Below, in pieces: positions 6,001 to 63,700 of a DNA stretch of 64,000 bases. The notes beneath the pieces are model-generated. The model did not search any database. It had not been told where the DNA came from and saw only the letters and a list, made by a program, of their open reading frames with translations. The position numbers and the translations under genes are program-made. This DNA is from Tridacna crocea. Taxonomy: Eukaryota > Mollusca > Bivalvia > Cardiida > Cardiidae. Each line of letters opens with the position of its first letter. Within the stretch, counting starts at the first letter, position 1. The DNA lies in the NCBI GenBank assembly GCA_943736015.1, contig OX031059.1, forward strand, positions 17,670,001-17,734,000, given 5' to 3'.

Positions 6001-9000
6001 TAAACTCAAATGCATTTAAACTCTAGGTTTGATTACATTGGCCTTTAATGTCACTTTTAGAAGTAAACCATATGACAGTGAAAATCTAGCATTCTTTAGA
6101 GGTCTTTTCTTAGTTTACCAAATTGGACAGGTATAACTTTTCACCTCACAGTCTGGACTTATATAACTACCCTGCAGAGAAAGAACTGTTTGAAAACATT
6201 GTGGGAAAAGGAGAAAATGCTGGTAACCATCATTTTCTCCTTTTCCCACAATGTTTTTTCTATCCTATCAAAGATAGAAATCATCATTTGAGCTACTTTT
6301 AATTTATTGTATACAATTGCTTTGAATTTGGACCTGTCTAAGATTTTGTTATTTAGTAAAGAGCAAAGTGGAATTTGCTTGTGTCTCTGAATAAGCAGTT
6401 TGTATTATTCATTTGAGTGTAGTCATGACCTCATATTTATTCATGAAGCTTATGCAGAGGTTTTGAATGATTCTTTTATATAATCTCCTCCATTGAAAGT
6501 CAGTTTGCAATTTTAGCTAACTTCTGCTAACTTCATTCATTTAACCCATTACCACACAATCCCTACTTTTGACGCCCCTGAGAAAGAAGCCTTTTGAAAA
6601 CACTGTGAGAAAAGGAGAAAATAATGGTAACCAGCATTTTCTCCTTTTCCCACAGTGTTTTCTACCGTTCCCAGAACAAATTTCAATTTTTCAGTCACCT
6701 TTATTTTGTCGTCTGCAAATGCTTTCAATTTGGACCAGTCTAAAATTTTCTAGTGTGGTAAAGAGTTAAATTGTAAGCTTTAGTCTTTTCTCAATGCTAT
6801 TGCCATTTGAAAATAAATACATCAGGGATGCTCTTTAAAAAGGGGGCTAAGTTTATCTACCAAAATTATTGAACCACATCAGCCCCGGCAGCCTGCTCAG
6901 GCTGACATTGATAGAAACTTTTGTTTGCTTTTTCTATTTTTTCTGCATGTCCAAGGACCTGTTTACCTCCAGATTCAGTTGATTGTTTGACAAAATGGAT
7001 TTTATGTAACCCTAATTATGTTAAATTAAATGCTTGGTAATTAACTAAATGCTTGGTACAATGCAACACGGGGATGCAGTAACTCCCTACCAAAACAATC
7101 CCTGGCTTTTACCTGACTCTCAGATAGAGGGCCTTTTGAAAACATTGTGGGGAAAAAAGAGAAAATAATGCACAGGCTAACCTCAGTCGATACTCTTTGC
7201 AGATGCATTAACTCTTTGCCACACAATCCCGACTTTTAATGACCCTGAGAAAGAAGCCTTTTGAAAACTTTGTAGGAAAAGGAGAAAATGCTGGGAACCA
7301 GCATTTTCTCCTTTTCCCACAATGTTTTCTACCCTTCACAAAACGAATTTCAAATTTTCAGTCACTTTTATTTTGTCGTCTGCAAATGCTGTCAATTTGG
7401 ACAAACCTAAAATATTGTCGTTTGGTAATGGGTTAAGCCCCCTTTTCAAAGAGCATGGCTCATATATATTTTTCCACTTTTTCTCCACAGCTATACACCA
7501 CTTCTGTTGATTTCCTTTGATGGATTTCGAAGTGACTACCTGACCAGAAACATCACACCTGCAATTGAAAAGCTGCGTTCTTGTGGTGTTCGTACCCCAT
7601 ACATGACCTCAGTGTTTCCAACAGAGACCTATCCCAATCATTATACAATTATTACAGTAAAGTACCGTTTTCTAGATTTAATTCTTTACCACGTAATCCC
7701 GACTTTTAACGACCTTGAGATAGAAAGCTTTTAAAAACATTGTGGGAAAAGGAGAAAATGCTGGTAACCAGCATTTTCTCCTTTTCCCACAGTGTTTTCT
7801 ACCCTTCACAAAACTAATTTGAAATTTTCTGTCACTTTTACTTTGTCGTCTGCAAATGCTTTCGATTTGGACAAACCAAATATTTTGTTGTTTGGTAATG
7901 AGTTAAAATATCACAAATGACCAAACACATTATATCTACATTAACTCTTTCTAGACTTGCACAAATTGAAAGCTTTTGCACCTTCAATTTCATTTAAGAG
8001 TTGTCATTTGTGATGGAAGGGTAGAAAACACCATTTAAAAAGGGGGAAATCTTGGTTGCTGGCATTTGTTTCCTTTCTCACTATGTTTTCAAAAGATATC
8101 TTTTCAAGGTTTGTTAAAACATAGAGATTGTTTAGTAAAGGGTTGACCGTATACAAATCAGTCATACAAACAACTAAAGGTTTTAAAACTCTTTTTGAAC
8201 AGTATGTATACAGAAAATTGCTTATTACAAGTAAGCACCATGTTTTTCAAAACTATCAATTGTAGGATTTGAATGGTTTGACCAACTATTCAAAGTGCAT
8301 GCTGAAAGCTCCCACAGTAGCTTTAGGTTAACACCGGTGCTTAGAGGTAAATCAACATACCTCTTTAATAAATTGCTGTGCTAAACAGGTATAGGCATAT
8401 AAGTGCTTGTATTTGTAGTTGAAACAGGTTTATCTTAAATCTGCCAAAGGCAATGAGGAATGAGAAAAAACCTCAAGGTATCACAATACCGTTTCACTTT
8501 AAAAGCTACTTTTGTTTCGGAGAAAAAGCATCAAAAAAAGGTTGGTGGTTTGAAAGCAAAATACACTTTCTTCTCCAACTGGTTCAAAGGCCCAGGAATT
8601 TACAGGGATTGCAGTTAGACTTCACTTAAGTTATTGGATAGTGGAACTAATTTGCAGTAACCCTTTACCAGATGACAAATTTTATGACTTATCCAATATG
8701 AAAGCAGTTGCAGACGACAAAATCAATTTTACTGAAAAATTGAAAATTGGTTTGGGAAGGAAAGAAAACATTGTGGGAAAAGGAGAAAATGCTGGTTACC
8801 AGCATTTTCTCCATTCCCCACAATGTTTTCAAAGACTTCTTTCTCAAAAGTCTGGATTGTGTGGTAAAGGCTTAACCCACGCAGTTATGGGAAAGTGGAA
8901 CTAATTAATCTTTCTCCTAAATATGTGTGAAAATATGATGGCATTAGGAGAATTTTATTATCAATTTTTTTTCCGGCTTTTCTTTCTAAGCATTAAAGTT

Positions 9001-12000: not shown

Positions 12001-15000
12001 TTGTTTGTTGCAATGTAACGAAGTGCAGTGCAAAAGAACCTTAACTCTACCTCGTGCTGTCTTTGAGTTATTTCCCTTTGATCGTCATTTTTACAGCATT
12101 TTCAGCTTGTCAGGAGTGTAACTTTGTCATCTTTGGTCCAATTGACTTGAAACTTGGCATTTGCGTTTGTTGCAATAATACGGAGTGCAGCGCAAAAGAA
12201 CCATTACTCTACCTTTTGCTGTCTTTGAGTTATTTCCTTCTGATCGTCATTTTCACAGCATTTTCTGCTTGTCCGGAGCATAACTTTGTCATCTCTGGTC
12301 TGATTGACTTGAAACTTAGCATTTGTGTTTGTTGCAATAATACAGAGTGCAGTTCAAAAGAATTATAACTCTACCTCATGCTGTCTTTGAGTTATTTCCC
12401 TTTGATCGTCATTTTCACAGCATTTTCTGCTTGTCCAGAATGTAACTAATTTTCAGTCTAAACATCTTCAAATTTGGTATGCATGATTGTTGAAAAATTG
12501 TGGAGTGCAGTGCATAAGAATTATAATTCTTTCTAGCACAAATTTTGAGTTATTCCCCTTAGATATTTTTTTTTTAGCATTTCTTGCCTGTCGGGCGCAT
12601 AACCTTGTCATCTTAAATAGGAATGACTTGAAATATGGTACGCTTATTTGTTGCAATATTTAGAAGTGCAGGTTGCAAGAAATGTAACTCTTCCTTGTGC
12701 TGTCTTTGAGTTATTTCCCTTTGATCATCATTTTTACACCATTTAGTGCTTCTTTAGAATATAACTTTGTCATCTCAAGTCATAACGACTTCAAAGTTAG
12801 TATGCATCATTGTTGCCATATTACGGAGTACAGTGCGCAAGAACAATAACTCTACCTAGCACAGATTTTGAGTAATTCCACTTTGATCTTCATTTTTACA
12901 GTATTTCTTGCTTGTCCGAAAGTGAACATTGTCACCTCAAGTCAAATTGACTTGAGACTCGGTAAACATTTTTTGTTGCTGTTATAAAAAGTGCAATGCA
13001 CTGGAACTGTAACCTTACCTAATCCCTTTTTGGAATTATTCCCTTTTCATTATTTTTTTTTACAGCTTTTCATGCTTCTCTACAGTATAACTTTGCCTTT
13101 TCATGTTGGAATGACCTGAAACTTTATATGCATGTTTCCTTAACATTACAGGAGACAATCATGGCTATTTCAATCACTTACATGATTTCTGCTGCACTGC
13201 TATTTTTCTCTACCTGCCCTTTAAGATTATTATTCCCCCTTGACAACTGGCCGTGGGATGGGTGTATCTTTCGACAATTTGCCGCTCTTGTTTGGTTTTT
13301 CTTTTATTTATATCTTTCACACAGCTATGGATAACCAATCAAAAACATGGTAAAAAGTCAGCATCGACTTTCTGGTTTGGAGCTGACATTCATGATCCAG
13401 CCAAAAAGCCGAGCTATACAATGCAGTTTGATGAGGGAGAGTAAGAAAAATTTTCTTATGTTCGTTATTCATATTAGCTTGGCTATTTTCAAGAAAACTA
13501 CAAGTTTTTGTAGAATCTCTAATGTTATTGTCTGCTCTTGCATTGTCATTATCATGCAAAAACTTTGACATTTTGTAATATCTCTAATATTACTGAAAAA
13601 TATTTACTTCACCTTTGGAGAAGTTGTTAACTATCAAAGGGAGAACTCATGCAAGGGCAGATAAACATCAAAGTATTTTCTTACAGTGTTATGCCCCATT
13701 TTTTACTTAGAATTTTCATTGAAAATAAAGAACTTGCAGCCTAGCGTTGTCATCCTCATGTGGTGCTCTTGTTTTAGCTTAGTTAACTCATTAACAGACG
13801 ACAAAATTTTAGACTTGTCCAAATTGAAAGCATTTGCACACGACAAAGTAAAAGTGACTGAAAATTTGAAATTTGCTTTGAAAAGGGTAGAAAACATTGT
13901 GGGAAAAGGAGAAAATGCTGGTTACCAGCGTTTTCTTCATTTCCCACAATGTTTTCTAAAGGCTTCTTTCTCAGGGGTGTCAAAAGTAGGGATTGTGTGG
14001 TAATGGGTTAAGTTCTGTTTTATATTATGTATCGTTTTAAGTTGTATGTTCCAATGTGAAACATTTAAAAATGCATTGTTTCAAATTGAGTAATTTGACT
14101 AGTGTCTGCAAGCTAATGTCGAAATGTTGTAAGTCGTATTATATACATATAATGCATTGTATTTGTCTTGCTCAGTGCTGTTTATTTTATGTCCCATTCT
14201 CTATCCTATCCTAATTCTTTTCCATTTTTAAGATGTTTCAAATGGTAAAGTTCAAAATGACAAATTATAGTGTCCGTTTCACACTAAGTGGCCACCCCCT
14301 CAAGGTGTGCTTTTCATGTATTATATAAGTTGGGGTAGCTCATTAATATATACTTCCTCTTTTTGTTCTCAATATTTTTGTAAAACCACAGTTATTTGCC
14401 TTTGTTAGAATCTATGTTTTTAATGTACTCATCACATGACTGCAGGTATGGTAAAATAATTTTTATATTACAATATACATGTATTATGTATACATAATAA
14501 AGTTTGTCTGCGTCAACTGAATTTTTGATTTCATCATACAGAAACTTCGATATTTTCTTGTATCTCAGATGATAGATTTACTTTAAAGGTTTTACCATGT
14601 TTTGGAAGCAGGTAAATTTGCCTAGAAACAAAGAGTCTTTGATTATTGATGATGAGACTAGGTTTGTTTTTTTTTGTCCTGTAAGTATTACAATTAGTAT
14701 AATTAATCTAAAATTTTCCAAAATAATTCTATTATCTCTGAAATTAAAAGAAATACTACAGTTCCAATTGTTTTGCTATGACATAGTTTATTCCCTGTGT
14801 AATTTTAAACAAGCCCTACATAACAGATTGAGCTGCTTTAATTCTTAACCACACAATCCCGAATTTTAATGACCCTTGGGAAGAAGCCTTTTGAAATCTT
14901 TGTGAGAAAAGGAGAAAATGCTTGTAGCCAGCATTGTCTCCTTTTCCCTCAATGTTTTCTACCATTTCAGGGACTATTCCAATCATCTGAACCCCATTTA

Positions 15001-18000
15001 CCGGTAATGTGTCATCTGTAAATTTTATACATGTATTTAGATTACGATAAGCCTAAAATTTTTGGTTTAATAAAGAATCTAAATAAAAAAAGGGATGATT
15101 TGTTGTTAGGTTAAGGTGATAGGTTTGTAATTTTTGTGATCTTTCTGAACCCAGATCTGATAGATACCAAGATATGATAGAACAAATTGTCACCTGGATG
15201 TCAATGAAGGAAGAGGAAAGGCCAGACTTCATTACGATGTATGTGGATCAACCTGACATACAAGGACATGAGTTTGGGCCCAACAGTCCACAGGTATAGA
15301 GTCCAAAGACTTCCTTATACTGAGCCTGCAGAGAACTGAATATACGCAACAATCAGTTTTAGTTTAGAAATAAAAACCTTAATTATTGCAGTATTTAAGT
15401 TTGCTTTTGTCCACAATGTTTTTAGAATAGCAAACAGAGTAGATAAAAAACCAAGCTGCACATTCTGTGCTGTCTGATCTTGTTCTACATGAGCCACAAA
15501 GCTACAGAATATGTGAAAGGGACAGTAAGAGTTATGCAGGGACCATAACATCAACAGTTATCAAATGTGTTCAAATCCTTAATTGAAGTACTAGCAATGA
15601 GATTGGCTGAGGCATTCCAAGACTAGATATATGATTGGCTGATACATTCTGTTTAACACTAAACCAAATGACAAACATGTAGAATTGTCCATATTGAAAG
15701 CATTTGCAGACAACAAAATGAGTGTGGCTAAAAAATTGAAATTTGTTATAGGAAGGGTAGAAAAGCATTATGGAAAAAGGAGAAAATGCTGGTTCCAAGC
15801 ATTTTCTCCTTTTCCCACAATGTTTTCAAAGGCTTTCTTCTCAGAGTTGTTAAAAGTCAGGATTTTGTGGTAAAGGGTTAAGCCATCAAATAGCAAATCT
15901 TCATCTGAACATGAAATTACTATTGTATCAACTCTTTACCAAACTTAAAAAAAAAAATTAGGCAAGAATTTGGATTGATGGCATCGCAAACATCAAACTA
16001 AAATGTTGCTTAAGTATGGGATGTTGTCTTTGATAAGGAAGAAAACATTGTTGGAAAAGAAAAAAATGGAGGTTACTGGTGTTTTCCATTTTTTGTTACG
16101 CCCGAAGGGTCGTATTATGTTATGGACGCGTCATCTTTCTGTCTATCTGTCTGTCCATCTGTCTGTCGGGGATTTCTTGTGTGTGCAACTCCTCTTACAG
16201 TTTCTATCGGAATGATTTAAAACTTACCACAATGAATCTCTGTGATGTGTAACTGTGCATGTGGCTCATAGAATTTGGATCTCTTTAGGCATTCTAGATT
16301 TTAATCCATTTCACTGACAAGCCCCACTGGGCATAATTATATGCGCCAGTTTTCAAACCTCTTGTTTACCATATTGCTTTAGAAAGTATTCATTTTCAGT
16401 GTTGTTGAAATTAGGATAGTGTAGTAAAGTGTTAAAGACCGTAGGTATCTGGTCTAAATCATGTTTAATATTTAACCCATTACCACACAATACCTACTCT
16501 TGACGACCCTGAGAAAGAAGCCTATAGAAAAAATTGTGGGAAAAGGAGAAAACGCTGGTAACCAGCATTTTCTCATTTTCCACAGTGTTTTCTTCCCTTC
16601 ACAAAACAATTTGAAATTTTCAGTCACTTTTATTTTGATGCCTGCAAATGCTTTCGATTTGTAAAAACCTAAAATGCTGTTGTTTGGTAATGAGTTAAGA
16701 AGTTTCAGTTTTCTGCCATAAACAATTTTAACCCATAGAGAGCCTTTCACAGCTACAGTTGCTACTGTGACAGTATATATCAAGATAAGAATGCACTAAA
16801 TATGCTGTCTGATCTTGATCTACACTGTCCACGTAGCTGCCTAAGACTGTGGGCAAAAGCAATCATTAAAATGTAAATATTTTGGTTGTATTTCTGGACT
16901 AAAATTATCTATTGGGTTTATTCTGCATTCTTAGTTTTGGAAATCGTGTGATAACTTCGTACCAAACAACAACATTTTAGGCTCTCCTACATTTGAAGTA
17001 TTTGCAAACAACAAATTAAATATGGTTATCAGCATTTTCCCCTTTTCCCAAAAAGGTTTTTCAAAGGCCTCTTCTCCTCATGGTCGCTGCAACTTGAGCT
17101 TTTGTTGTGCTGGATAACACCACAGAGACAAGAGCAAACTTCATAGTTGCATTAGTTTGGTATTTTTTTTCCAGTTAAATGACATGCTGAAGTATGTGGA
17201 CAGTCTTGTTCAGACTTTGATGGATGAATTAATGAGAAACAATCTCCACAACTGTGTGAATATTGTGATTGTGTCCGATCATGGTAAAAAATTTACTATT
17301 ACTTCTTACTTTGTATAATATCTAATATGCAGTTGTCTCCTTTTGCTTCATTAGGAGCCCACCTGGGTGGCTCAGTGGTGAGTGTGTCGGACTCATGACC
17401 TGGTGGTTGTGAGTTTGATATCTGGTTGAGGCGAATTTTCTTTCCGGCATATTTTCCCCTCTCATCTCTGCTGGTGCATGTAAAAAAGGTAGTCGGTGGC
17501 TTTGGAAGGAAAGTTGTGTTAGTACTGGTATGAGAAAGCCTGGAAACACAATGTGCGTTACCGACCGCCATGATATGACCTTCGCTGTTAAAGTGGCGTT
17601 AAATCCCAATACAACCAACCAACCAAATCTGCATTAGGAAAGGAAGGCTAGACAAAATTAAATGTAAATGAACAATGTTCTGGTACAAATGGATTTAATG
17701 CATCTCCACTATGTGTTCTACCAAACAAATCATCATATAATTATTGATCATTTTGTCTTATAACTGGCTGAACTCAGAAGTAGAATGGTCTTTGATCATG
17801 CATAAATATACCAAAGAAACAGTTTTTGACCAAGGACAGCCTGTGCAGACCTACCTGGGTTAATACTTTTTGCAATGCACTAAATCTCCATTTTACCAAG
17901 CATTACTCAATATTTATGTGAGGTCTGAGAAGCTATTCTATTCTGGTAACCAGCATTTTCTCCTTTTTCCACATTGTTTTCTGCTCTACAAAGAAAAATT

Positions 18001-21000: not shown

Positions 21001-24000
21001 GGTACCAAAGAAAAGTTATTTCAAGCACTAGAATGTAAAAGCAAGCATTTTGATGCCTTTATAAAGGAAACTTTACCTGTCAGATACCACTACACCTATA
21101 ATGACAGAATCGGAGATATAGTTCTTGATGTTAGTGATACATGGATGATAAGGTTTGTACTCTGATCATAATTATATAGTCAATCTTTTACCAAACAATA
21201 AATTTTAGACTCTTCCAATTTGAAAGCACCTGCAGATGACAAAATGAAAAAAAATTCTTATAAATTGCAGGTGTATGATAAGGTAGGAAACATTGTGGAA
21301 AAATGAGAAATTGTTCGTAACATGCTATTTCTCCTTTTCCCACAATGTTTACCAAAGCATTCTTCCCTAGGATGGTAAAAACAAGGGAGAAGTCGGCTTG
21401 TTAAAAAACATTGTGAGATAAAGAGAAAATGCTAGTTACCAGCATGTGTTCTAGACTATCTAATTTAACTCTTTACCACACAAGAAAATTTTAGACTGGT
21501 CCAAATTGAACGCATTTGCAGACGACAAAATAAAGGTGACTGAAAAATTGAAATTTGTTCTGGAAAGGGTAGAAAACACTGTGGGAAAAGGAGAAAATGC
21601 TGGTTACCAGCATTTTCTCCTTTTTCCACAGTGTTTTCAAAAGGCTTCTCATGGGCGTCAAAAGTAGGGATTGTGTGGTAATGGGTTAAATCCCATCATG
21701 TGTGGAATATCTATTTTGTCATCTGCAAGTGATGTCAAATTTGACCCCTCTAAAGTATTGTCATTTTGGAAAGATTCACCCCTTTTCAAATTGACAAATT
21801 TTAACATTTTCCAAATTCAAAACATCTGCTGGATGACAAATTTAAAAGAGGCACAAATAAACTTAAGTTTTCTGATATGGCAGAAATTGTTACAGGAAAA
21901 GGGGAAAATGCTGGTTAACAAAATTTTCTCCTTTTTCTTGAAGTTGTTTTCTAAAGGTTTCTCCCATAGCTTAGTTAAAACTTGGAATTGTTTTGTGAAG
22001 TGTTAACTCCTTACGAAATGATGAAATGTTAGAATTGTCCAAATTGAATACATTTGCAGATGATGTTGCTCAGGACAAAAAATTTCTCTTTGAAATGGTC
22101 AAAAACATTGTCGGAAAAGGAGAAAAAATTGTTGTTGGGAGACTTGTTACAAGTAATTTGACCTTTTTCAACTTTATCTTTAACCCATTACCACACAGTC
22201 CCGACTCTTAACGACCCTAACAGAAGAAGCCTTTTGAAAACATTGTGGGAAAAGGAGAAAATACTGGTAACCAGCATTTTCTCCTTTTCCCACAACATTT
22301 TCTACCCTTCCCAAATCTAACTTCAATTTTTTATTTACATTTATTTTGTCGTCTGCAAATGCTCTGAATTTGGACTAGTCCAAAATTATGTTGTTTGATA
22401 AAGGGTTAAATACTGTTAATTAAAATTGATATCAAAAGATAATCAAGTTAACTTTTGGTGAGCTGGCATACTTTTATTTTAACATCGAAATGCTTAAGAT
22501 AGTCAAAGACCATCTCCACTCTTTACCACACAATTCTCACATGAGAAAAAAGCCTTTTGAAAACATTGTGAGAAAAGGAGAAAATGCTGGTAAACCGCAT
22601 TTTCTCCTTTTTCTTCAATGTTCTTTACCCTTCCCAAAACAAATTTCATTTTTTCAGTCACATTTAATTTGTCATCTGCAAATGCTTTCAATTTGGGCAA
22701 GTCCAGAATTTTATTATTTGGTAAAGGGTTAAAAATGTTCTGTCATAGAAATGAAAATGGTGTTCAAATTTTGACAGTTTAGACTCTTCTTTGCAGATGA
22801 CAATTTCAGTAGCTCTGTATGACTGAATTTTTTTCATGAAAGGTCGCTAAACATTTTGGGAAAAAGGAGAAAATGCTGGTTACTAGCATTTTCTCCTTTT
22901 CCAACAATATTTTGCAAAGACTTTGAATGAAAAAGGTTGTTGAAACTCGCGATTGTGTGGTAATGTATTTTAACCATAGAAAATAACAAACATTGCCATA
23001 ATTTTCAGGCCTGAGAAAAAGTCGAGATGTGGTAAAGGCAATCATGGTTATGATCCAGCCTATAAGAACATGAGAGTGAGTAACTGTTAGTTTCAGTTTC
23101 AGTGTCAAACTTTCCCTACTTTCCAACGATTTGTTTGCTTTGTATCTAACCATTAGGCTATTAACCACAACTCAATGAACTTTAGGGGACAGTTCTTAAA
23201 CTTAATGATACTTTCTACCCATTTGTTTGCTTTGCATCTAACCATTAGATGGCTAACCACAACTTACTGGCCTTTAGGGGAGAGGGACAAGCAAGATCAG
23301 ACTGCAGAAAAGGTACAGTCTGATCTTTGACCCACACTGACAGGGAAGGAGATATTTTTCTCGGAGTAATAAGTTTGAAATAGTATTATTCCGGTTTCTA
23401 CCACTGACTTGAAAATTTTAACTTGTTTAGCAGTTTAACAGTCAATGCTTATTCAGCATTATTGTAGGTAGTTTCAGTGAGACCATCAATACATCATTTA
23501 TGTGTTTTCTGGAGCTTATTAATCCAGCACTATGGGGAATATTCTTTCCAAGCCACTCACTACTTTTTCACAAAGTTCAAGCAAAAGCTCACAGTTGCAG
23601 AAATGAATATTGTTGTGATGAATATCAACAGTTCTCAAGAAGAACTAGCATTTTGTTCTTTTTCCAGAATGTTTTCTTGCATTTCTAAAGCTGCAGTCAT
23701 CTTTGAATTGCATAAAATTCACCCGTTTCCATTCAGACAAGTTTAGAATTTTGTTGTGTTGTAAACGGTTAAAATTCAGTTGAATTTATCAATCTCGGTT
23801 TAACTCTTTATCACACGATCCCAAGTTTTAACAACCCTGAGAAAGGAGCCTATGGAAAACATTTTGGGAAAAGGAAAAAATGCTGGTAACCAGCATTTTC
23901 TCCTTTTCCCTCAATATTTGCAACCCTATCGAACTAAAGATCAACATACTGACAAGATTTGATTTGTTGTCTGCAAATATTGTGAATTTGGCCCAGTCTA

Positions 24001-27000: not shown

Positions 27001-30000
27001 TAGTGAGCTATTGTGATCGTGCTGTGTCTGTCGTGCGTCGTCAACTTTTTACCTTGTGTACGCTCTAGAGGCCACATTTTCGGTCCGATACTCATGAAAG
27101 TTGGTCAGAATGTTTGCCTTGATGAAATCATGAACGAGTTCGAAAAAGGGTCATGTCGGGTCAAAAACTAGGTCACTAGGTCAAATCTTAGAAAAACCTT
27201 GTATACGCTCTAGAGGCCACATTTTCAGTTGGATACTCATGAAAATTGGTCAGGATCTTTGTCTGGATGATATCTTGGACGACTTTGAAAATGGGTCATG
27301 TGGGGTCAAAAACTAGGTCACTAGGTCAAATTTTAGAAAAACCTTGTGTACACTCTAGAGGCCACATTTTCAGTTGGATACTCATGAAAGTTGGTCAGGA
27401 TGTTTGCCTGGATGATATCTCAAAGGATTTTGAAAATGGGTCATGTCAGGTCAAAAACTAGGTCACTAGGTCAAATCTAAGAAAAACCTTGTGTATGCTC
27501 TAGAGGCCACATTTTCAGTCAAAAACTCTTGGAAGTTCTTCAGAATGCTTGTCTTGATGATATCTCGGACAACTTTGAAAATGGGTCATGTCGGGTCAAA
27601 AACTAGGTCACTAGGTAAAATCTTAGAAAAACCTTGTGTACGCTCTAGAGGTAACATTTTCAGTCCGATACTCATGAAAGTTGGTCAGAATGTTTGCCTG
27701 GATGATATCTTGGACAAGTTTGAAAATGGGTCATGTTGGGTCAAAAACTAGGTCACTAGGTCAAATCTTAGAAAAACCTTGTGTGCGCTCTAGAAGCCAC
27801 ATTTTCAGTCCAAAACTCTTGAAAAGTTGTCAGAATGCTTGTCTTGATGATATCTCAAACAAGTCCGAAAATGGTTCATGTATGGTCAAAAGCTAGGTCA
27901 CTAGGTAAAATCTTAGAAGAACCTTGTGTACGCTCTAGAGGCCACATTTTTAGTCCGCTACTCATAAAAGTTGGTCAGGATATTTGCCTGGATAAAATCT
28001 AGGACCAGTTTTAAAATGGGTCATGCCAGGTCAAAGACTAGGTCACTAGGCCAAATCTTAGAAAAACCTTGTGTCAGCTCTAAAGGCCACATTAACAGTT
28101 GGATACTCATGAAAATTGGTCAAGATGTTTGCCTAGATGATATCTCAAACAAGATCGAAAATGGGTCATGTGGGGTCAAAAACTAGGTCACTAGGTCAAA
28201 TTCTATAAAAACCTTATGTACGCTCTAAAGGCCACATTTTCAGTTGGATACTCATAAAAGTTGGTCAGAATGTTTGTCTTGATAATATCTCAGACGAGTT
28301 CGAAAATGGGTCATGTGAGGTCAAAAACTAGGTCACTAGGTCAAATCTTAGAAAAACCTTGTGTATGCTCTAGAGGCCACATCTTCAGTCCAAAACTCTT
28401 GAAAGTTGGTCAGAATATTTGCTTTTATGATATCTTGGACGAGTTTGAAAATGGGTCATGTGGAGTCAAAAACTAGGTCACCAGGTCAAATGTTAGAAAA
28501 ACCTTTTGTAGGCTCTAGAGGCCACATTTTCAGTCCAAAACTATTGTAAGTTGGTCAGAATGTTTGCCTTGATAATATATTAGATGAGTTTTAAAATGGG
28601 TCATTGGGGGTTAAAAACTTGGTCACCTGATCAAATCTTAGAAAAACCTTGTATATGCTCTGGATGCCACATTTTCAGTCCAACACTCTTGAAAATTAGT
28701 CAGAATGTTTGCCTTTATAATATCTTGGATAAGTTTGAAAATGGGTCATGTTGGGTCAAAAACTGGGTCAATAGGTCAAATGTTATAAACACCTTTCGTA
28801 TGCTCTGGAGGACACATTTTCAGTCTGATACTCCTAAAACTTGTTCATAATATTTGTCCTGGTGATACCTTGAATGAGTTTGAAAATGGGTCATGTGGAG
28901 TCAAAAACTAGGTCAATGGGTCAAATATTAGAAAAACCTTGTGTACACTCTAGAGGCTACATTTTCTGCCTGATACTCTTCAGACTTGGTCAGAATGTTT
29001 GTTTTGGTGATGTGTCAAAAGAGTATGATAATGGGTAATTGTTGGGTCCAAAACTAGGTGACTTTGTGAAATCTTAGAAAAACCTTTTGTATGCTGTAGA
29101 GGCCACATTTTTAGTCCAATACTCATGACACTTGGTCAGAATTTTGTCTTATTGATATCTCAAAAGTGTTTGATGATGGGTAATGTCTGATAAAAAACTA
29201 GGTCACTGGGAAACTAGATGGTTCATGTTTGGTCAATAGACTCAGGTGAGCGATTTCAGGGCCATCATGGCCCTCTTGTTAAACATTCCCTCAAGTTGTA
29301 ACGACCATGAGGAAGAGGACTTTTGAAAGCATTGTGGGAAAAGGAGAATAAACTGGTAACGAGCATTTTCTCCTTTTCCCACAATGTATTCTACACTTTC
29401 ACAGCGAAATCTCATAAATCTCTACACATTTAAACTGTTGCGTGCTTATCATTTCAATTTTGACAACTCCATTTTATTTTGGAAGAGAAGAAATAGTTTT
29501 TTAGAGGTAATTTACCCACTTGTATTTATTACTAGTAACATCTTGGAGCCAATGAAAGTAAAGCTCAATTATTGTAGTAACTGTCTGTATTTGTCACTAT
29601 ATCTTTTTTTGGAAGAAAAAAAGAACTTACTTTGCTGTAGATCTTAATGTATATACTATTAGAGCTTGAGCAATGGAAAGAGGAGTGTAACTGTGACAGC
29701 AATATTATAAAAGGTTAATGATAATATTTTTGAAAAAGTATTATGTTGCAAAAATAGCATTCAACTTCTTTATATGTGTATCACATTGTTTTTACCTTTG
29801 CTGGATAGTCAAAACCTATGTTGTATTTGTTCACTTTTATTAGACCTATTTTATCAATGTTGGCAAAAATATTCCATTTTGAATGTTTCACAGGTTTCTG
29901 GTATTCCTTCTGGTAATCATACATACCATGGTGGATTAACATTGGAGGAGAAGAACTTGTCGATTTGTTTTCTAACCAATTCTCTGTTTGCTACAGTTTA

Positions 30001-39690: not shown

Positions 39691-40769
39691 TGAAGTGTGA
39701 TGTAAACACTTATTAGGTCATTTTTGTGAAAGGGCCAAAGTTCTATCAACCTTTAGGAAGAAGCCTATTGGGAAACATTTTGTCCTTTTTCCCACATCGT
39801 TTTCTATCCTTCAAAAAAAAAGTCAAGTTTTGGGCAAAATTAAGTAGGCTATGTATGTATACACAAGTTTAATTTTTTCTCATTTGGTAAAAAGTTGAAA
39901 AAGACTGGAACTGGAAAGAGACAAACACAGTCATAGAAGATTAAAATACTTATTGCATGAATGCATTTCAACAAACTCTAACAAATGCATTCCTGAATCA
40001 AAGCGTTGAAAATGCTGAAGTGGTATTTGTCAAGGAAATCCATTGTGTGGAATTAATAGTTTGAAAGAAACAGAGACATATTGTTCAGATATTGGCTAAA
40101 AGTCAACCCACTAAGTAAATGAATACCTTTTCGGTTGAAGGGAGAGTATTCATGACAAAGTTTGGTTTATTTTTGTATAAGTGGTCTCCTTTTGATCATG
40201 AGGAAGAAGCAGGAGTAACGCCCCTTGACAGTAGGATGCATGACGAACAGAGAGAAAAATCCTGTTGATATATCGAACAAAATTAAGTTTTTTCCAGAAA
40301 ACTATAATTTTGAAATATCTCTAGCATTTTACATTCAATTTCCAACATTACAATCAATAGATGGTAAGCGATATTTCCTTTTTATCCTAAGCGGCGCACC
40401 AGTAGTATCACGTGACATCGGACAATCAAAGCATTATTTCAGTAACAAATGCCGTATGTCCCGTTTGCAAATCCTTTAAATTTGGACAAATTTATAACTG
40501 AAAAGAAAATGACACAGCAAGAAATCTATGGAAATCAATTCTAACACAATTCAAACATATTTCATGATTAAGAAAAAGAAAATCACAAACAGACAAAATA
40601 TGCATTTTATAAAATCGTATTTAAATAAAGAGCATGTAGAGACTAAGAACGGACTTAGCCTCTGAAACCTGTATAAAATTCATAATCCTGACCATAAGTG
40701 ATCACCAAAGGGGTAAATTAATATGAAACAAGAAGAGTCAAATTAATGTGACACACGTGTGTGCTAATT

Positions 40770-40972
40770 CTTACGAACAAAGTCCGTAACAAAGAAACAA
40801 ATGAATAAATGCATGGCAGAAATAAGGTACCGAGCGGGATTAGAACCCCGAACTCCCGGACGCAAGGCCAATACCTTAACCACTGAGCCAAAGAGATATC
40901 TCCCTGACGCAGTAGCCAGGTATTGTATTTAAATCGGGAGAATGCCATGCAGGAAGGTGTGGTCTCCCGTAA
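40770..40972 (-). repeat. 3' LTR of the miniature retrotransposon
   Basis: Near-identical to 41092-41294. On the minus strand, box A lies at about 40896-40880 and box B at about 40849-40837, with tRNA-like spacing. Confidence 0.78.
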
Positions 40973-41091
40973 CACACACCCTCTTAAAGTCACCATTTAT
41001 TGATGACTCAAAGCCTTATTAGGCAGGAAGTCCGATTTTGGACAACAAATGGGATTAATGGCTCAATGGCCAATCCCGGACGAGCCCCCAT

Positions 41092-41294
41092 CTTACGAAC
41101 AAAGTCCGTAACTAAGAAACAAATGAATAAATGCATGGCAGAAATAAGGTACCGAGCGGGATTAGAACCCCGAACTCCCGGACGCAAGGCCAATACCTTA
41201 ACCACTGAGCCAAAGAGATATCTCCCTGGCGCAGTAGCCAGGTATTGTATTTAAATCGGGAGAATGCCATGCAGGAAGGTGTGGTCTCCCGTAA
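41092..41294 (-). repeat. 5' LTR of the miniature retrotransposon
   Basis: This LTR is followed on the minus strand, after one base, by the tRNA-Pro-type primer-binding site at 41090-41073. The near identity of the two LTRs implies a recent insertion relative to the older host repeat. Confidence 0.78.
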
Positions 41295-43390
41295 AATAAT
41301 CTGTAAGAAGCAAGTACATTTCAGCTGTTCTAAAGGTCACCCACTCTGCAGTGCGATACCGAGATCAAAGGAACACAGATTTAACCCTCCACCCATTTTT
41401 TGTTTGGTAAGACTTCATTAGATACATATTTTTTATACTCAAAATGAAACTTAAAAGAAGTTATGGAAGGTCTGAAATTTGATCTGAAGCCACGTTTCTT
41501 TTGTTCATGATCGATAACATGAACTTATTCGTCAATAGGTACATGCTTGAAAGTGCAACAAGGATGTTTGATAATAGTACTTTAAATCACTAAATGGACT
41601 GTCCCTGTCTTTCTGAAGACACTAAACAGCTAATCAACCTTTTACCAAAGTATTTCGAGCGACCCGTTTAAAAAGGGGGCAGACGTGCTGATTTGCCCCA
41701 CTGTCTGTTATTTGTCTCACTTTCTCAACCTTAACACATTTCTACTCCCCCCCCCCATACACACACTTTCAAAAAACCGAAAACTGAAAGTAATCAATAT
41801 GTAGTTCATAAACATCTGTGAAAAAACGAATTTTCAAAGTGTGAGAGAAAATATTTGAGGAAAAAAGGAAGGGCTTGCAACATACATGTTCTCCTGTTTC
41901 AACAAAAGTTGTTTTTTTACTTTTTCAAAGACAATTACAACCATTTGACCCACGTTTATTCAATCGTCTCCATATGCTAAGTATCTGGACGAGTCCAAAA
42001 TGTTGTCGTCGGGTGAAAACATTTGCAGTAACTATTTAAAACCCTATGCCACATAACCCAAGTTTTTTAAGACCCTTAGAAATATAGGTTTTTAAAAATC
42101 TTGTTGAAAAGGGTTAAAGTTCAAGTAACCAACCTTTTCTTGATTTTTTTTAAATTTGCTTTTATTGCATATTGATGAAACATCTTAGCTAAGCTTTTTC
42201 TCAAGTTTAAATGCCATCTTTTAAACATTTTATAGATATATATTAGAAGATCTATGACCCTTATTTTGTCCGCCATCTTGGATTTTGGTGGCCATCTTGA
42301 ATTGCCCAATGATGCCAATCTGGCATCATCCAGATTTCAAATCAGGATACCAATACCTACTTATTTCTGCAAAAGTATTTTCTATAGACGCTACTGCACA
42401 GTCATCTTGGATTCATGCTGGACTAATTATGACACGTGTGAGTTAGTCGGTGCCTAAAAAGATCATATAGATCATCCACTTTGACGGAGAAATACTGAGA
42501 TCAAACGAACACCCAGCTAACCCTTGACTAGCTTTCCAATGAAAACAAGTATAGCACGTATTCGCATCCTGAAAATGAATCTCTAACATATCTCTTTTCT
42601 AGATGGAATGGAAGATTTGAAATTTGAATTAAACTTTGTTATTACGATAGTCAACCTATAAAGTAGTTCAAACAGGAACATCGCAAACATGCAACTATAC
42701 AGATTTTTAAAAATGTCGTTTCAAAGTTAGGACTTTCGCTATAAATTCAAAATGTATGATGTCCCAGTTTTTTGTTAGTAGACTGTCTCTGTCTTTTAGC
42801 AGATACTAGAACGATTTTTTGGAAAATTATAACATTAATAGTTTAAATAAATCAAACCACAGATTCCTTGACTTAGAGCCTGTACGTCACAAACTTAGGT
42901 ACAGAAGTCCGCAAAGATTGGTTGAATAATCAGACATAATAACAGGAAAGGTCTGCTGCAGGTATATTGATGATATCCCCCCACCCCATTTTTTACAACA
43001 CTGAATCTTTCACCAACTCTTTACGAAACAAAAATTTGAAACTTGCCCAAATTGAAAGTCCTTATAACAATTTGAATGTGGCTTAAAAATGAAATTGTCT
43101 TTGGGAAGGGTAGCAAGGGAAAAGGAGAAAAGGTTGGTTACTAGAACTTTATCCCTTTTCAACAACATTTTTAAAAACTATATTTCTACTGGTTGTAAAA
43201 AGCTTGGGTTATGTGGCATAGGGTTTTAAATAGTCACTGCGAATGTTTTCACCCGACGACAACACTTTGGACTCGTCCTGATACTTACCATATGGAGATG
43301 ATTGTATGAACGTGTGTCAAATGGTTGTAATATATATTGTCTTTGAAAAAGAAAATACCACTTCAGCGTTCTCAACGCTTTGATTTACCT

Positions 43391-57460: not shown

Positions 57461-57559
57461 AACAAATCTGGCAGACTACAAAACTGATTTTTTCAACATT
57501 GATAGAACTTCAGATGACAAATGAAAACCAAAAACAAAATCTTTGGACCTTGTCTATAC

Positions 57560-59716
57560 ACCCAGCTAATCCTTGACTAGCTTTTCAATGAAAACAAGTA
57601 TAGCACATATTCGCTTCCTGAAAATGAATCTCTAACATCTTTTTTTTCTAGAGGGAATGGAAGGTTTGAAATTTGAATTAAACTTTGTTATTACGATAGT
57701 CAACTTATAAGGTAGTTCAAACAGGAACATTGCAAACATGCAACTATACAGATATTTAAAAATGTCATTTCAAAGTTAGGATCTTTGCTATAAATTCAAA
57801 TGTATGATGTCCCAGTTTTTTGTTAGTAGACTGTCTCTGTCTTTTAGCAGATACTGGAACGATTTTTCGGAAAAATTATCACATTAATAGTTTAAATAAA
57901 TCAAACCACAGATTCCTGGACTTCGAGCCTGTACATTACAAACTTAGCTACAGAATAACGCAAACATTGGTTGAATAATCAGACATAAAAATAGGAAAGG
58001 TCTACTGCAGGTATATTGATGTTATCCACCCCCTCCCCCACACCCCATTTTTTACAACACTGAATCTTTCACCAACTCTTTACGAAACAAAAATTTGAGA
58101 CTTGCCCAAATTGAAAGTCTTTGCAGATACCAATTTGAATGTGGCTTAAAAATGAAATTTTCTTTAGGAAGGATAGCAAGGGAAAAGGAGAAAAGGTTGG
58201 TTACTAGAACTTTATCCCTGTTCAACAACATTTTTAAAAACTATTTTTAAGGGTCGTAAAAAGCTTTGGTTATGTGGCATAGGGTTTTAAATAGTTACTG
58301 CGAATGTTTTCACCCGACGGCAACACTTTGGACTTGTCCAGATACTTAGCATATGGAGACGATTGAATTAACATGGGTCAAATGGTTGTTATTGTCTTTG
58401 AAAAAGTAAAAAAAAACCCAAACTATTGTTGAAACAGGAGAAAATGCATGTTGCAAGCCCTTCCTTTTTTCCCCAAATATTTTCTCTCACACTTTAAAAA
58501 ATTCGTTTTTCGCAGATGTTTCTGAACTATATATTAGTTTCAGTTTAATCACGTTTTTTTTGAAAGTTTGTGGGGGGGGGGGGTTGTGTTATGGTTGAGA
58601 AAGTGAGACAAATAACAGACAGTGGGGCAAATTAAGCACTATTATCAAACATCCTTGTTGCACTTTCAGGCATGTACCTATTGACGAATACCTTCATGTT
58701 ATAGATCATGAACAAAAGAAACGTGGCTTCAGATCAAATTTCAGACCTTCCATAACTTCTTTTAACCTTCATTTTGAGTATTAAAACTAATGAAGTCTTA
58801 CTGAAAAAAGAGAAAATGGGTGAAGGGTTAAACCGGTGTTCCTTTGATCTCAGTATTGCACTGCAGGGTTAGTGGCCTTTAGAACAGCCGTAATGTACTT
58901 GCCTCTTACAGATTAGCACACACATGTCACATAAAATTGACTCTTCTTATCTTTTGTTTCATATTAATTTACCCTTTGGTGATCATTAATGGTCAGGATT
59001 ATGAATTTTATGCAGGTTTCAGAGGCTAAGTCTGTTCTTAGTCTCTACATGCTTTTTTATTTAGATAAGATTTTATAAAATGCATATTTTGTCTGTTTAT
59101 GATTATTTTTTTCAAAGGCAATATCATGAAATATGTATGAATTGTTTTATAATTGATTTTCATAGATTTTTTGCTATGTCATTTTCTTTTCAGTTATGAA
59201 TTTATCCAAATTTAAAGGATTTGCGAACGGGACATACGGCATTTGTTACTGAAATAATGCTATGATTGTCCGATGTCACGTGATATAATGATGTGCCGCT
59301 TACAATAAAATGGAAATATCGCTTATATCAAACCTAATTGGCAAATCGTCTATTGATTGTAATGTTGGAAATTAAATGTAAAATGCTAGAGATATTTCAA
59401 AATTATAGTTTTCAGGAAGAAACTTAATTTTGTTCCATATATCAACAGGATTTTTCTCTCTATTTGTCATGCATCCGACTGTCAAGGGGCGTTACTCCTG
59501 CTTCTTCTTCATGATCAAAAGGAGACCACTTATACAAAAATAAACCAAACTTTGTAATAAATACTCTCCCTTCAATCAAAAAGGTATTCATTTGCTTAGT
59601 GGGTTGACTTTTCAGTCAATATTTGAACAATATGTCTCTGTCTCTTTCAAACTATTAATTCCACACAATGGGTTTCCTTGATAAATACCACTTCAGCGTT
59701 TTCAATGCTTTGATTT
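57560..59716. mobile_element. Foldback-type repeat element, right copy (truncated, without TRIM)
   Basis: The 57560-58400 part is collinear with 42512-43345. The 58400-59716 part is the reverse complement of 41900-40000. It ends with the same inverted terminus (ACCACTTCAGCG). It lacks the 527-bp insertion: the sequence runs straight through GATTAGCAC at 58911. Confidence 0.65.
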
Positions 59717-60235
59717 AGTTTAACCATAGATTATTCATATAATTTACATAGACTAGTTTAACATTAATTCAAACACAAAAAGGATTAGAAAGTAAGCTTA
59801 TAGCTTATATAGTTCCTCTCCAATTTATGGTTAGGTCATTAAATGAAGTCTACTTATAATTGAACCTTACTCCGGCAATAGGGGGCCTTATGCAAGCAAG
59901 ACATCACCTACATGTAGTTATAGACATATCAACTCCTTTTTGTCTAACCTTTGGCTATATCATGGGGTAGAGTTACCCTTTGACATTCAGTAAAATGTAA
60001 AGATATCGAAAAGTTTTAGCCCATGTCAGCCAGTGCAGACTGTGAAGGATGACATAGGTTGATAGTTTTCATAAATGCAATAAGCCCCCCTTTCTCAGAG
60101 CATGGCTCAATTACTTTACTATTTTGACATACATATGAACAGTGAAAGATAAGAAATAGGATCAACAGTATGAAATTAACAAAGAAGGAAATAAACAGTT
60201 TATTTAGATTGGAAATTGTTTGTCAAATTCTATAA

Positions 60236-60617: not shown

Positions 60618-60764
60618 TCAATCCATTGACCACAGTTCAGTTGGCAAATAAGTCCTGATTCTAGCAGCCAGGGTCCACTCGGCTTCCATAAAGAATCTAA
60701 ACCCTGTCAGGAGTTCAATGTCCCGCAGTCGAACAACATTCTGCTTTAAATAGTCCATGACAGT
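60618..60764 (-). CDS. ENPP gene C, terminal exon
   Basis: The exon encodes [20 protein letters not shown], then GFRFFMEAEWTLAARIRTYL and PTELWSMD, ending in TGA. It is 147 nt, exactly as B16. A hairpin MITE ends at 60579, 39 bp beyond the stop and so probably inside the 3' untranslated region. Confidence 0.95.
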   Translation of the reverse strand, partial: TVMDYLKQNVVRLRDIELLTGFRFFMEAEWTLAARIRTYLPTELWSMD

Positions 60765-63700
60765 CTGAAATGAATAGTAAGGATCCACTACTTCTTTTTA
60801 GCCAATAAAATATGCCTAGACAATATGTAAAATATGCTGATTGTCAAAAATATTTAGACAGTCACCTACAAAATGTATGGGTTGTCAATAACTTCTCTGA
60901 GCTTGAAGTACATATCTTCAGAAATCACAATAGACATTACATATTATTATACTGCAAAGGAATTTCTCCTGATCTGATTGGTTAACATGCCGGGAACATA
61001 TATGTTCCCTAGCAAATACCATGTAAAGTCAGTTTCCCTTTCGAGTAAACATCACTACACATGCAACTAAACATCCAAACTGGCAGCATCAATTGATCAC
61101 CAGACTGCACATTTATGCACCAAACTGCATGTTTTAGTGACGTCAGTTTCCAGTGATGTCAATTTTCATTGAATTGGGGCACTCAGAAGGGTATTGCTAT
61201 TTTGTCTGCATACTCAATTTGTGAGATTATAAAACATGAAAATTTTGCTTAAAGTTCTTTGAAAGGGTAAAACTTTGCTGTATAATAAATTTGTTGCACG
61301 CTCAGGTGGCAGGGGACTTGGAAACTTGTTCATGGTCGTGTCGAATAATGTTGCCACCTTGCCTTCCACTCGGAACGACATGGTTCATCACAGCCATGAA
61401 TAAGTTTCCAAGTCCCCTGCCACCTGACCGTACAACTAATAATGTCGAAGTTTTAGCTGAATTATGACAGAGACAAGGCAAAAGATGCAATCTTTCAACA
61501 TTTCCTTCAAAAACAGCTTGACTAATTAATTGTAATATGGTACAATTTCTCTGAGAGGCCACCTCTATTAAGCAATCAACTTGTTTTTAGTAAGCATAGA
61601 CTTAGTAACTAAAGAAGGCATATATTTTGAAATGTACCTGAATTCAGATAACACCTGTATTGAGAGAGCACAAATGTAAATGTGTCGCAGGTACTTGAAC
61701 AATTTTAGACTATTCTGAATTCAAAGCATTTGCTGACAACATATTAACTTTAGCTAAAATGGTGGTAATTGTCTGTGAAAGTGTAGAAAACCTTGGTGGA
61801 AAAGGAGAAAATGCTGGTTACCAGCATTTTCTCCTTTTCCAACAAGGTTTTCAAAAGGCTATTTCCCCAGGGTTGTTAAAACTTCGAGACTGTGTTGTAA
61901 AGAATTAATACAGATTTGAGTATACTTCAAACATTTAACTTACCTTGCAATTTGGAGTTGAACTAACATGTGGAAGGACAAATGATAAAACATCTATGTC
62001 TGCCACATCACACTCACTGACTTGCTTTACAGTTTCATTTGTACATCTCATCAGAATGGTGTAATAATGTGTAGGTACTGCCACTTTCGAGCCAACTTTC
62101 ACAAAGCTGTAATAGATTGTAGCTAGGTTAGCATCCAAACACGTAAATGAAGTAAGGTACATATCATTTTCTCCACATATATTTTTTAACACAGTATCTT
62201 TCAAGGTCACTTTGAACTGTGCAAAGCAAGAAATGGCTACTCATGTGGCACAGTTTGTTGCACTTTTTCATGCATGTCTCTTTGTATGTCATCTATCTTT
62301 CTATTTACCTCATTGGCGGTCTTAAAGCTTCACAACACAATCTCAAGGGATGACTTCCCTGAGAAAGAAAGCTTTTGCAAACCTGTGGAAAAAGAACATG
62401 CTGGTTAACAGCATTTTCTCCTTTTCCCACAATATTTTCTACCATGCCAAAGACAGAGCTCATCATTTGAGCTATATATTTAATTTGTTGTCTGAAAATG
62501 CCTTTAATTATGACTTAAGTCAAAATGTTTGTCCGTTGGTAAAGATTTACTGCTGTTTTGAGTCAATTCAAACAATATTCAAATAGTCATAGCAGCAACT
62601 TTTAAATGTATGTTTCCTAGTTTTTACTAGCACAGGGCTGTGCTTTATTCAACTATGAAAACTAATGCCCGAGAAAATACACCAATAATTCTATACCAAT
62701 AATTTTAAAACTCAAATACATGCATGGGAAGCAGTTAGAATACCACAATGGACAGAAAAAATCTGTCTCCGCACACTGTGAAAAACAGTCTTGTGTGATC
62801 TAAAATTTTCTCAGGCTGCTTGAATCAGATACAAGCACAGGGAAAGACAACAGCTCAATAAATAACAGGTATAGGGCTTCAGAGGGTATGTTACAAGCAT
62901 TTCTTCTTTTGCCTCAATGTTTCCAAAGTGGTCTGAAGTATGACAAAAAAAGACTGTCTAGAAAGTAACAAAATAATTACCACACTTACACTTGTTGTAC
63001 AGCCTCATCATCAACTCTACCATCATAGTTCCTGTCAAACACTGGTCCTGAAGTGACATGTACTGTCCTGTGCTTCCTCACAAAGGCACTTATTGATGAT
63101 AAAAGGGAACTCCATATACCTGTCCATATCACAAATAAACCTGTACCAAAATCCATGTAACTCTGCAGCTAATGGCATTTGAAATCTTGAGAAAGGAGCA
63201 ATTACTTGTAAAATGCAATTGCTTCCCTTTGAATGTTTTCCATACAAGTTATAGATATCTCTCAAAAACAGTTTGATGATTACATAACGAAGTTGACTCA
63301 GTCACTAGACATACCAACTTGCAATCTTTAACCCCTAGAGCACTACATAAACCTACCCACACATTTACAGCCATAAACATTATCTAAATTAGAGCTGTCA
63401 CGGAATGTGACTTAATACCCCTACATGCGCTCTGACAGAAACAGGCAATTACTACTATTTTGTACACAGACTGACGCAGAGACAGACACATAGACACACA
63501 GGCTTATTCCAGTATACCCCCCCCCCCCAAAAAAAATGTTTTGCAGGGGTATAACAAATGCAATTTGTTGATTACTTTGGCCCAGAATGTTTTAGCAAAG
63601 TGACAGTGTAGATCAAGATCATACACATTTTGTGCAGTCTGATGCTGTTATACACTGGCCGCAAAGCCAACTTAGTTTTTACAGCTAATAATTTATACAA

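Follow-up and report, generated by a model that had tools for sequence, protein, structure and literature searches.

A Helenus-type TRIM element with tRNA-type promoter boxes in its LTRs, and its hybrid insertions with a Gypsy family

Miniature LTR retrotransposons (TRIMs) with tRNA-like LTRs have been described under the name Helenus, with 51 families in bivalves (Kojima 2024, Biology 13:119, PMC10886601). In the parts of that paper available to us, Helenus elements are 311-1263 bp long, have no coding capacity and are flanked by 4-bp duplications in animals. A tRNA-Pro primer-binding site (PBS) is found among the bivalve families, Gypsy-13_CGi is named as a tRNA-Pro Gypsy, and Gypsy elements are proposed as helpers of animal Helenus on the basis of PBS similarity. 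The molluscan hosts tabulated there all belong to Pteriomorphia. The author of PMC10886601 knew of no helper for Cassandra, a TRIM of plants. An earlier reading of the present locus (the sequence-only reading) had supposed that a tRNA-type version would be new; Helenus had already been described in the same paper.

The window analysed here is the whole stretch of 64 kb. The results support a TRIM with tRNA-type promoter sequence in each LTR for the 528-bp sequence at 40769-41296 on the minus strand. A repeat search of the window gave direct repeats of 204 nt, 99% identical, at a spacing of 322. The complete Helenus-type element, the ends of which are fixed by an empty site, consists of a 5' LTR of 206 bp (41091-41296; TTTTACG...CGTAAGA, where most copies start with TGTTACG), an internal region or centre of 116 bp (40975-41090) and a 3' LTR of 206 bp (40769-40974; TGTTACG...CGTAAGA), all on the minus strand. 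The second sense base of the 5' LTR is T, against the TGTTACG start of the 3' LTR, and the pair has 3 differences in total (1.5%). The PBS (41072-41090, minus strand) lies directly at the 5' LTR end, and these first bases of the centre, TGGGGGCTCGTCCGGGATT, are the complement of the tRNA-Pro 3' end plus CCA over 19 nt. In the parts of the two papers available, its first 18 nt are a tRNA-Pro primer site (PMC1769482) and all 19 nt open a tRNA-Pro-TGG reverse primer (PMC12217144). Allowing up to 3 mismatches, a search for the first 18 nt gave a single site in the window and none in 100 shuffles. The polypurine-tract (PPT) region AAGAGGGTGTG (40975-40985, minus strand) adjoins the 3' LTR, the purine tract itself being AAGAGGG, then TGTG.

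The LTRs, PBS and PPT, together with the promoter boxes described below, confirm the miniature LTR retrotransposon with tRNA-like boxes proposed by the sequence-only reading, as well as its purine tract before the second repeat. Its locus was also right, although it gave 40770 as the start and the element is on the minus strand. The direct repeats exist, but had been taken as 203 bp with two differences; the 119 bp assigned to the centre are too long by the comparison above; and the tRNA-Pro match extends to 19 nt, not 18, without the one base that had been placed before it.

The target site can be read from a paralogous repeat without the element at 58634-59718 (plus strand), in which ATTA is present once (58912-58915), whereas at the filled site ATTA stands at both sides of the element. 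This paralogue is identical to the flanks of the element at 524 of 578 aligned bases. The unoccupied copy with its single four bases fixes both element ends and an exact 4-bp duplication, TAAT at 40765-40768 and TAAT at 41297-41300, in place of the 5-bp duplication TAATT/TAATC suggested before. Judged by divergence, the LTRs (1.5% apart) are much younger than the two host repeat copies (9% apart). The larger repeat of which these are part has two copies, 39993-43355, which holds the TRIM, and 57558-59718, which is empty; they are 88-91% identical, with segments in rearranged order and about 230 bp inverted (42140-41915 / 43126-43355).

Several other features were seen in the window. Much of it consists of an interspersed repeat of about 230 bp (3388-3616, 6541-6770, 13783-14011, 21464-21690 and many more), with about 80-95% identity on both strands, and one copy has a translated frame. 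A tandem array with a 145-bp unit in 14.9 copies is located at 27051-29207. At 17291-17660 there is a SINE-like sequence, single in the window, having an A box TGGCTCAGTGG from about 17368 (plus strand) and no B box in the scan. Two minus-strand frames at 60621-60797 and 62989-63168 show weak similarity to the C-terminal region of ectonucleotide pyrophosphatases, with best E values of 0.0036 and 0.0067, and are probably exons of one gene; a Pfam search with 10 window frames, including these two, returned no family.

Each LTR of the element carries an exact A box TGGCTCAGTGG and, 32 bases apart from it, a B box GGTTCTAATCC with 1 mismatch. On the minus strand, these are at 41202-41212 and 41159-41169 in the 5' LTR, and at 40880-40890 and 40837-40847 in the 3' LTR. 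Pairs of this kind had a mean of 0.0 in 40 simulated 64-kb sequences, and the A and B boxes at tRNA-like spacing in each LTR, as originally noted, are upheld. No tRNA was found in the window element by ARAGORN or Rfam, and Rfam gave no match at E up to 1 in 40000-42000, a 5S rRNA-type promoter included. Folding of the sense LTR RNA (40769-40974, minus strand) gave -77.4 kcal/mol compared to -53.1 for shuffles (z -5.5; 0/200 as good). The LTR forms a long hairpin, in which the A-box region pairs with a partial inverted copy of itself upstream of the A box, also found as inverted repeats; the folding of the centre alone is unremarkable (z -1.6).

We infer that the A and B boxes of the 5' LTR may recruit RNA polymerase III. 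Alternatively, the TRIM could be transcribed by Pol II from a TATA-like LTR box, the tRNA-like part being a passenger from an old SINE insertion. The box in question is TTTAAAT at LTR base 42, which could serve Pol II, and the tRNA-like part has no tRNA score and, in the window copy, a mutated B box. The majority B box over 39 LTRs is nevertheless a perfect GGTTCGAATCC, the sole AATAAA of the element lies in the centre, upstream of the 3' LTR, which is awkward for Pol II 3' ends, and the sense strand has no TTTT (T4) in its predicted transcript. We regard transcription by Pol II as rather unlikely.

Pol III stops at runs of at least four T. Predicted to start at LTR base 73, some 12 bases upstream of the A box, the RNA would extend for 456 nt to the element end, and no TTTT is found on the sense strand in these 456 nt, though 159 of them (35%) are T. 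Shuffling of the 456 nt gave a mean of 5.5 TTTT with dinucleotides preserved (0/2000 at zero) and 4.3 with mononucleotides (0.6% at zero). When only a single non-redundant unit (322 nt) was shuffled, the means were 3.2 (0.9% at zero) and 2.5 (5.7%), respectively, and this last value, from the most conservative shuffle, limits the weight of the T4 absence. A runs are not depleted in the transcript (1 seen, 0.6 expected). Pieces of the window with similar T content and without TTTT numbered 0 of 1311 when overlapping and 0 of 166 when non-overlapping, the element being excluded. The longest T4-free stretch of the minus strand of the window, 618 bases, is at the TRIM element. That of the plus strand, 431 bases from 40605, also overlaps the element, in keeping with the scarcity of A in the element (87 of 456 sense bases) rather than with Pol III. 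The LTR holds no T-run terminator, and the first T4 is met 91 bases into the flank.

The same property was looked for in 24 fetched elements, i.e. 23 two-LTR copies and L021, leaving out the window copy. TTTT is absent from 23 of them, the exception being L018, and the LTRs of two further loci, L092 and L107, which are 6-7% diverged, are likewise T4-free. As the TRIM copies are near-identical, the T4 result has roughly the weight of a single observation, to which the diverged LTRs of L092 and L107 are added.

The genome search covered a 1.05-Gb assembly of 31 contigs. The LTR query gave 41 matches, the best 40 or so of 2233 first-look candidates being scored, and these fall into 31 loci including the window copy, all of which were read (L035 and L036 are one locus). 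Among these 31 best loci there are 24 two-LTR copies (504-528 bp), 2 solo LTRs (L027 and L044), two loci with three LTRs, of which L021 has the order LTR-centre-LTR-centre-LTR, 1 two-LTR hybrid, an element with an enlarged centre (L039) and a 3'-truncated one (L029); Gypsy sequence is present in L023 and L036. The sampled copies are the youngest part of the TRIM family, since only the best-scored matches were taken, and the number of solo LTRs is probably too low in this sample of the 31 best loci.

An exact 4-bp duplication is present at 27 of the 31 best loci, the exceptions being L019, L024, L029 and L042, or in 20 of 24 when eight loci of one shared flanking repeat are counted once. In these eight (L016, L017, L026, L028, L030, L034, L043, L045) the TRIM is at the same site of another repeat and, because the flanking repeat is common to all of them, they probably derive from one TRIM insertion multiplied along with its host repeat. 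Likeness around the TRIM was also seen at L011, which agrees with L012 at 99% over about 1.9 kb and with L013 over the whole 3.2 kb fetched.

Of the 24 fetched elements, 18 have an exact 19-nt PBS; across all 24, the LTR pairs show a median of 3 differences. The 61 LTR differences of L038 stem from a deletion left unaligned in that comparison. The PPT AAGAGGGGG was present in 17 of the 19 non-solo loci printed. The LTRs of one pair differ in a block at about bases 99-147 in L025, L032 and L033, at sites common to another subfamily, a pattern suggestive of an exchange of the tRNA-like part, either following insertion or in the course of reverse transcription. No relatives of the element were found in genome contigs; in viral contigs a 16-base A-box word occurred in 7 contigs and the other searches for relatives gave none. 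A search for the LTR word in papers gave no hit.

These copies bear on the idea that the element is a chance dimer of tRNA-derived SINEs. The A/B box region of each 206-bp unit does resemble a SINE head, and solo units exist. They make up only 2 of the 31 best loci, however, against 24 two-LTR copies; of the two, L027 has no tail and is flanked by a TTTG duplication, and L044 lies inside an AT repeat, so that its ATAT duplication is weak evidence. The PBS, the TGTTACG...CGTAAGA ends, the centre and the 4-bp duplications recur among the copies. The chance SINE pair was rejected, and we give it almost no credence. The sequence-only reading had likewise set SINE dimerisation aside, naming a majority of single units without a PBS as the finding that would speak for it, and this is not what the genome holds. 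It had further proposed a search for two-LTR forms, solo LTRs and duplications, all of which were found, with 4 bp in place of 5, and a search for an autonomous partner with the same primer site, for which a candidate Gypsy was found via hybrids.

The foreign part of the hybrid L023 contains a frame of 222 aa, and we take its family to be Gypsy from the look of its gag and its LTR ends; Pfam searches with the hybrid gag and two fragments gave matches below cut-off only. Using this frame as query, 150 of 23718 first-look candidates were scored, and many of these 150 copies have open frames of about 1600 aa. In the copies read, the Gypsy LTRs are about 560 bp, TGTTATG...CGTAACA, and three of them that were checked have TATAAAA, AATAAA and 8-9 T4 runs each. 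The LTR is followed by a GAAAT spacer and then by the same tRNA-Pro PBS as in the TRIM; of 14 Gypsy loci, 12 match the TRIM centre exactly over its first 21 nt. The Gypsy PPT is CAAGGGGGGAAG. All five Gypsy copies with both ends read have a 4-bp duplication, two of these having been seen after the BLAST-drawn LTR edge was shifted by eye, and the LTR pairs of five copies read are near-identical (99.5-100%). The family is abundant and has undergone a recent burst. Beyond their similar tips, the TRIM and Gypsy LTRs are unrelated (local score 20; shuffle mean 20).

Four hybrid insertions were found, each bounded by a Helenus LTR on either side and flanked by an exact 4-bp duplication. The Helenus LTRs enclose Gypsy sequence (PBS, leader and gag), which meets the TRIM centre at ATTGGCCA. 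Comparing the Gypsy (AACTTAAATTGGCCAAAAGAGC), TRIM (CCGGGATTGGCCATTGAGCC) and hybrid (AACTTAAATTGGCCATTGAGCC) sequences, the junction reads as one switch within the shared 8-base word ATTGGCCA. Beyond the PBS, the TRIM centre and one Gypsy copy (2.2 kb, 5' part) have only the 8-mers ATTGGCCA and TTTAAGAG in common. A genome search for the hybrid junction, allowing up to 2 mismatches, gave 4 sites, versus 0 in the reversed control. We also considered that the TRIM centre is decayed gag and that TRIMs are deletions of a longer element; this was rejected, as the Gypsy gag diverges after ATTGGCCA, and its different continuation past this word makes the long forms hybrids.

Hybrid (a), L023 on C7, is 1354 bp long, with the duplication ACTG and 0/206 LTR differences; its order is TRIM LTR and PBS, foreign leader, the 222-aa frame, TRIM centre from base 17 and TRIM LTR. 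Hybrid (b), L092 on C5, has the duplication ACGT and 1/206 LTR differences, its LTRs being about 93% identical to those of the window. Hybrid (c), L036 on C9, is a TRIM unit plus a hybrid unit with a common LTR, with the duplication ATAG and a rearranged first LTR. Hybrid (d), L107/L108 on C3, known from its left and right end pieces, measures 6874 bp between outer ends, with 0/206 differences between the TRIM LTRs and the duplication ATGG. The left piece comprises TRIM LTR, Gypsy PBS, leader and gag, and the right piece comprises PPT, Gypsy LTR, PBS, leader, gag, junction, TRIM centre and TRIM LTR. A further two-LTR TRIM with an ATCG duplication (L108:1719-2250) lies in opposite orientation about 270 bp from this 6.9-kb composite.

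Post-insertion DNA recombination or gene conversion could also be thought to have produced the hybrids, which would then be no sign of shared particles. Unequal crossing-over could form the shared-LTR and tandem forms (L021, L036 and the C3 composite), gag tracts could be converted, and L036 lacks clean outer LTR copies, its first LTR being rearranged. On the other hand, the outer Helenus LTRs of L023, L092 and the C3 composite differ at just 0, 1 and 0 of 206 sites, their 4-bp duplications are exact, as for single reverse-transcribed insertions, and the joint is one of two 8-mers common to the TRIM centre and 2.2 kb of a Gypsy copy. An origin at the DNA level is improbable in our judgement.

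The number of switches was approached through the gag parts. That of L023 differs at 3/656 positions from one Gypsy copy and that of L092 at 2/626 from others, whereas the two differ from each other at 22/626 plus 30 gap columns. For L036 the nearest Gypsy in the sample is at 17/566, with no close donor. The gag of L107 differs from that of L092 at 2/593 positions plus 33 gap columns, and on account of this closeness the two hybrids may share an origin. The gag tree had 42 rows and 404 columns outside the charged repeat. L082, whose place is the same as that of L092, and L083, L089, L100, L101 and L102, in which the start or end word is missing, were omitted, and one further sequence set left out L076, L083 and L089. 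In the AU test, with L107 outside it and one set of identical rows on both sides left free, a single clade for the gag parts of hybrids (a)-(c) was rejected (p = 0.00018; 0% of 200 bootstrap trees). Two or more independent switches are therefore needed, unless later conversion affected the gag tracts. The hybrids probably point to an abundant, recently active Gypsy family as the helper of the TRIM.

Taken as a whole, we have high confidence in a young non-autonomous Helenus-type LTR retrotransposon, with a putative Pol III RNA and probably mobilised by a Gypsy element with the same tRNA-Pro PBS. The anatomy, the 4-bp duplications, the dispersal as two-LTR copies and the hybrids with one Gypsy family are observed directly. 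In the proposed mechanism, Pol III recruited by the A and B boxes of the 5' LTR would start the RNA shortly upstream of the A box, and the RNA would cross the T4-free element, to terminate either within the 3' LTR or where the flank has its first T-run. A read-through RNA would still be workable in first-strand transfer, because presumably only the 3' end of the strong-stop DNA must pair inside the 3' LTR. The TRIM RNA would be packaged in particles of the Gypsy with the same tRNA-Pro PBS and similar LTR tips, where it would be copied into DNA for insertion by the Gypsy integrase.

For the hybrids, the minus strand would begin on TRIM RNA, cross the 3' LTR and most of the centre, switch at ATTGGCCA to a co-packaged Gypsy RNA and reach the Gypsy PBS. 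The plus-strand TRIM LTR would then land on the Gypsy PBS, with (a) and (b) as the outcome. Alternatively, the minus strand could reach the 5' end of the Gypsy RNA and continue on a second Gypsy RNA by ordinary R transfer, giving (d). Sharing of particles is a requirement for trans-mobilisation. The more specific proposal, that a T4-free Pol III RNA enters the particles of a Pol II-driven Gypsy and that repeated switches at the 8-base word enclose the gag of the helper in tRNA-promoter LTRs, and in one 6.9-kb insertion a Gypsy-sized body, stands in our opinion evenly between right and wrong. If it is true, a TRIM can capture helper sequence, and the helper could gain Pol III-type LTRs. One genome with a young tRNA-promoter TRIM, a young abundant Gypsy and hybrids of both makes cross-packaging testable in one organism, along with the question whether a Pol III RNA can be the genome of an LTR retrotransposon.

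Compared with known systems, the window element is assigned to Helenus by its structure. Like Helenus, as far as described in PMC10886601, it is a short non-coding LTR element (528 bp with a 116-bp centre), has A and B boxes in each LTR, a full tRNA being neither present here nor demanded there, has a PBS (19 nt, tRNA-Pro) and a PPT between the LTRs, and makes 4-bp target-site duplications (exact at 27/31 best loci). For TRIMp3, a TRIM driven by Pol III, the features observed are the promoter boxes and the absence of TTTT. The bivalve biv-TRIM (Satovic 2019, PMC6934838), from the available parts of its description, is similar in its 202-218-bp repeats and its solo and tandem forms, but has a 77-80-bp centre, a PPT that is mostly GGGGAGA and no unambiguous PBS; the 116-bp centre, exact PBS and other PPT set the present element apart by description. 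The marks of tRNA-derived SINEs, i.e. single units, an A-rich or simple 3' tail, no PBS and no LTR pairing, do not describe it. Cassandra is likewise a TRIM with a small-RNA promoter in the LTR, and tandem LTR arrays are reported for it in the accessible text of PMC10853983, PMC10886601 and PMC7215508. Its promoter is of the 5S rRNA type, in contrast to the tRNA type here, where Rfam returned no match, and according to PMC10886601 its transcripts stop within the 3' LTR, whereas no T-run terminator is found in the LTR here.

Hybrids of a small-RNA-promoter TRIM and its helper were not reported in the literature searched, which was mostly open-access and covered mainly at abstract level, and a word search of the available text of PMC10886601 gave no mention of TTTT. 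The complex LTR insertions of Triticeae (PMC1950507, in part) are comparable, being template-switch daughters of two parents, also with two elements having a common LTR; the parents here differ in being a TRIM with tRNA-type LTRs and its probable helper. TRIMs with a tRNA promoter were thus already known. What is added to the account in the accessible parts of PMC10886601 is the T4-free predicted transcript and the Gypsy hybrids, by which the candidate helper is tied to the TRIM beyond the shared PBS.
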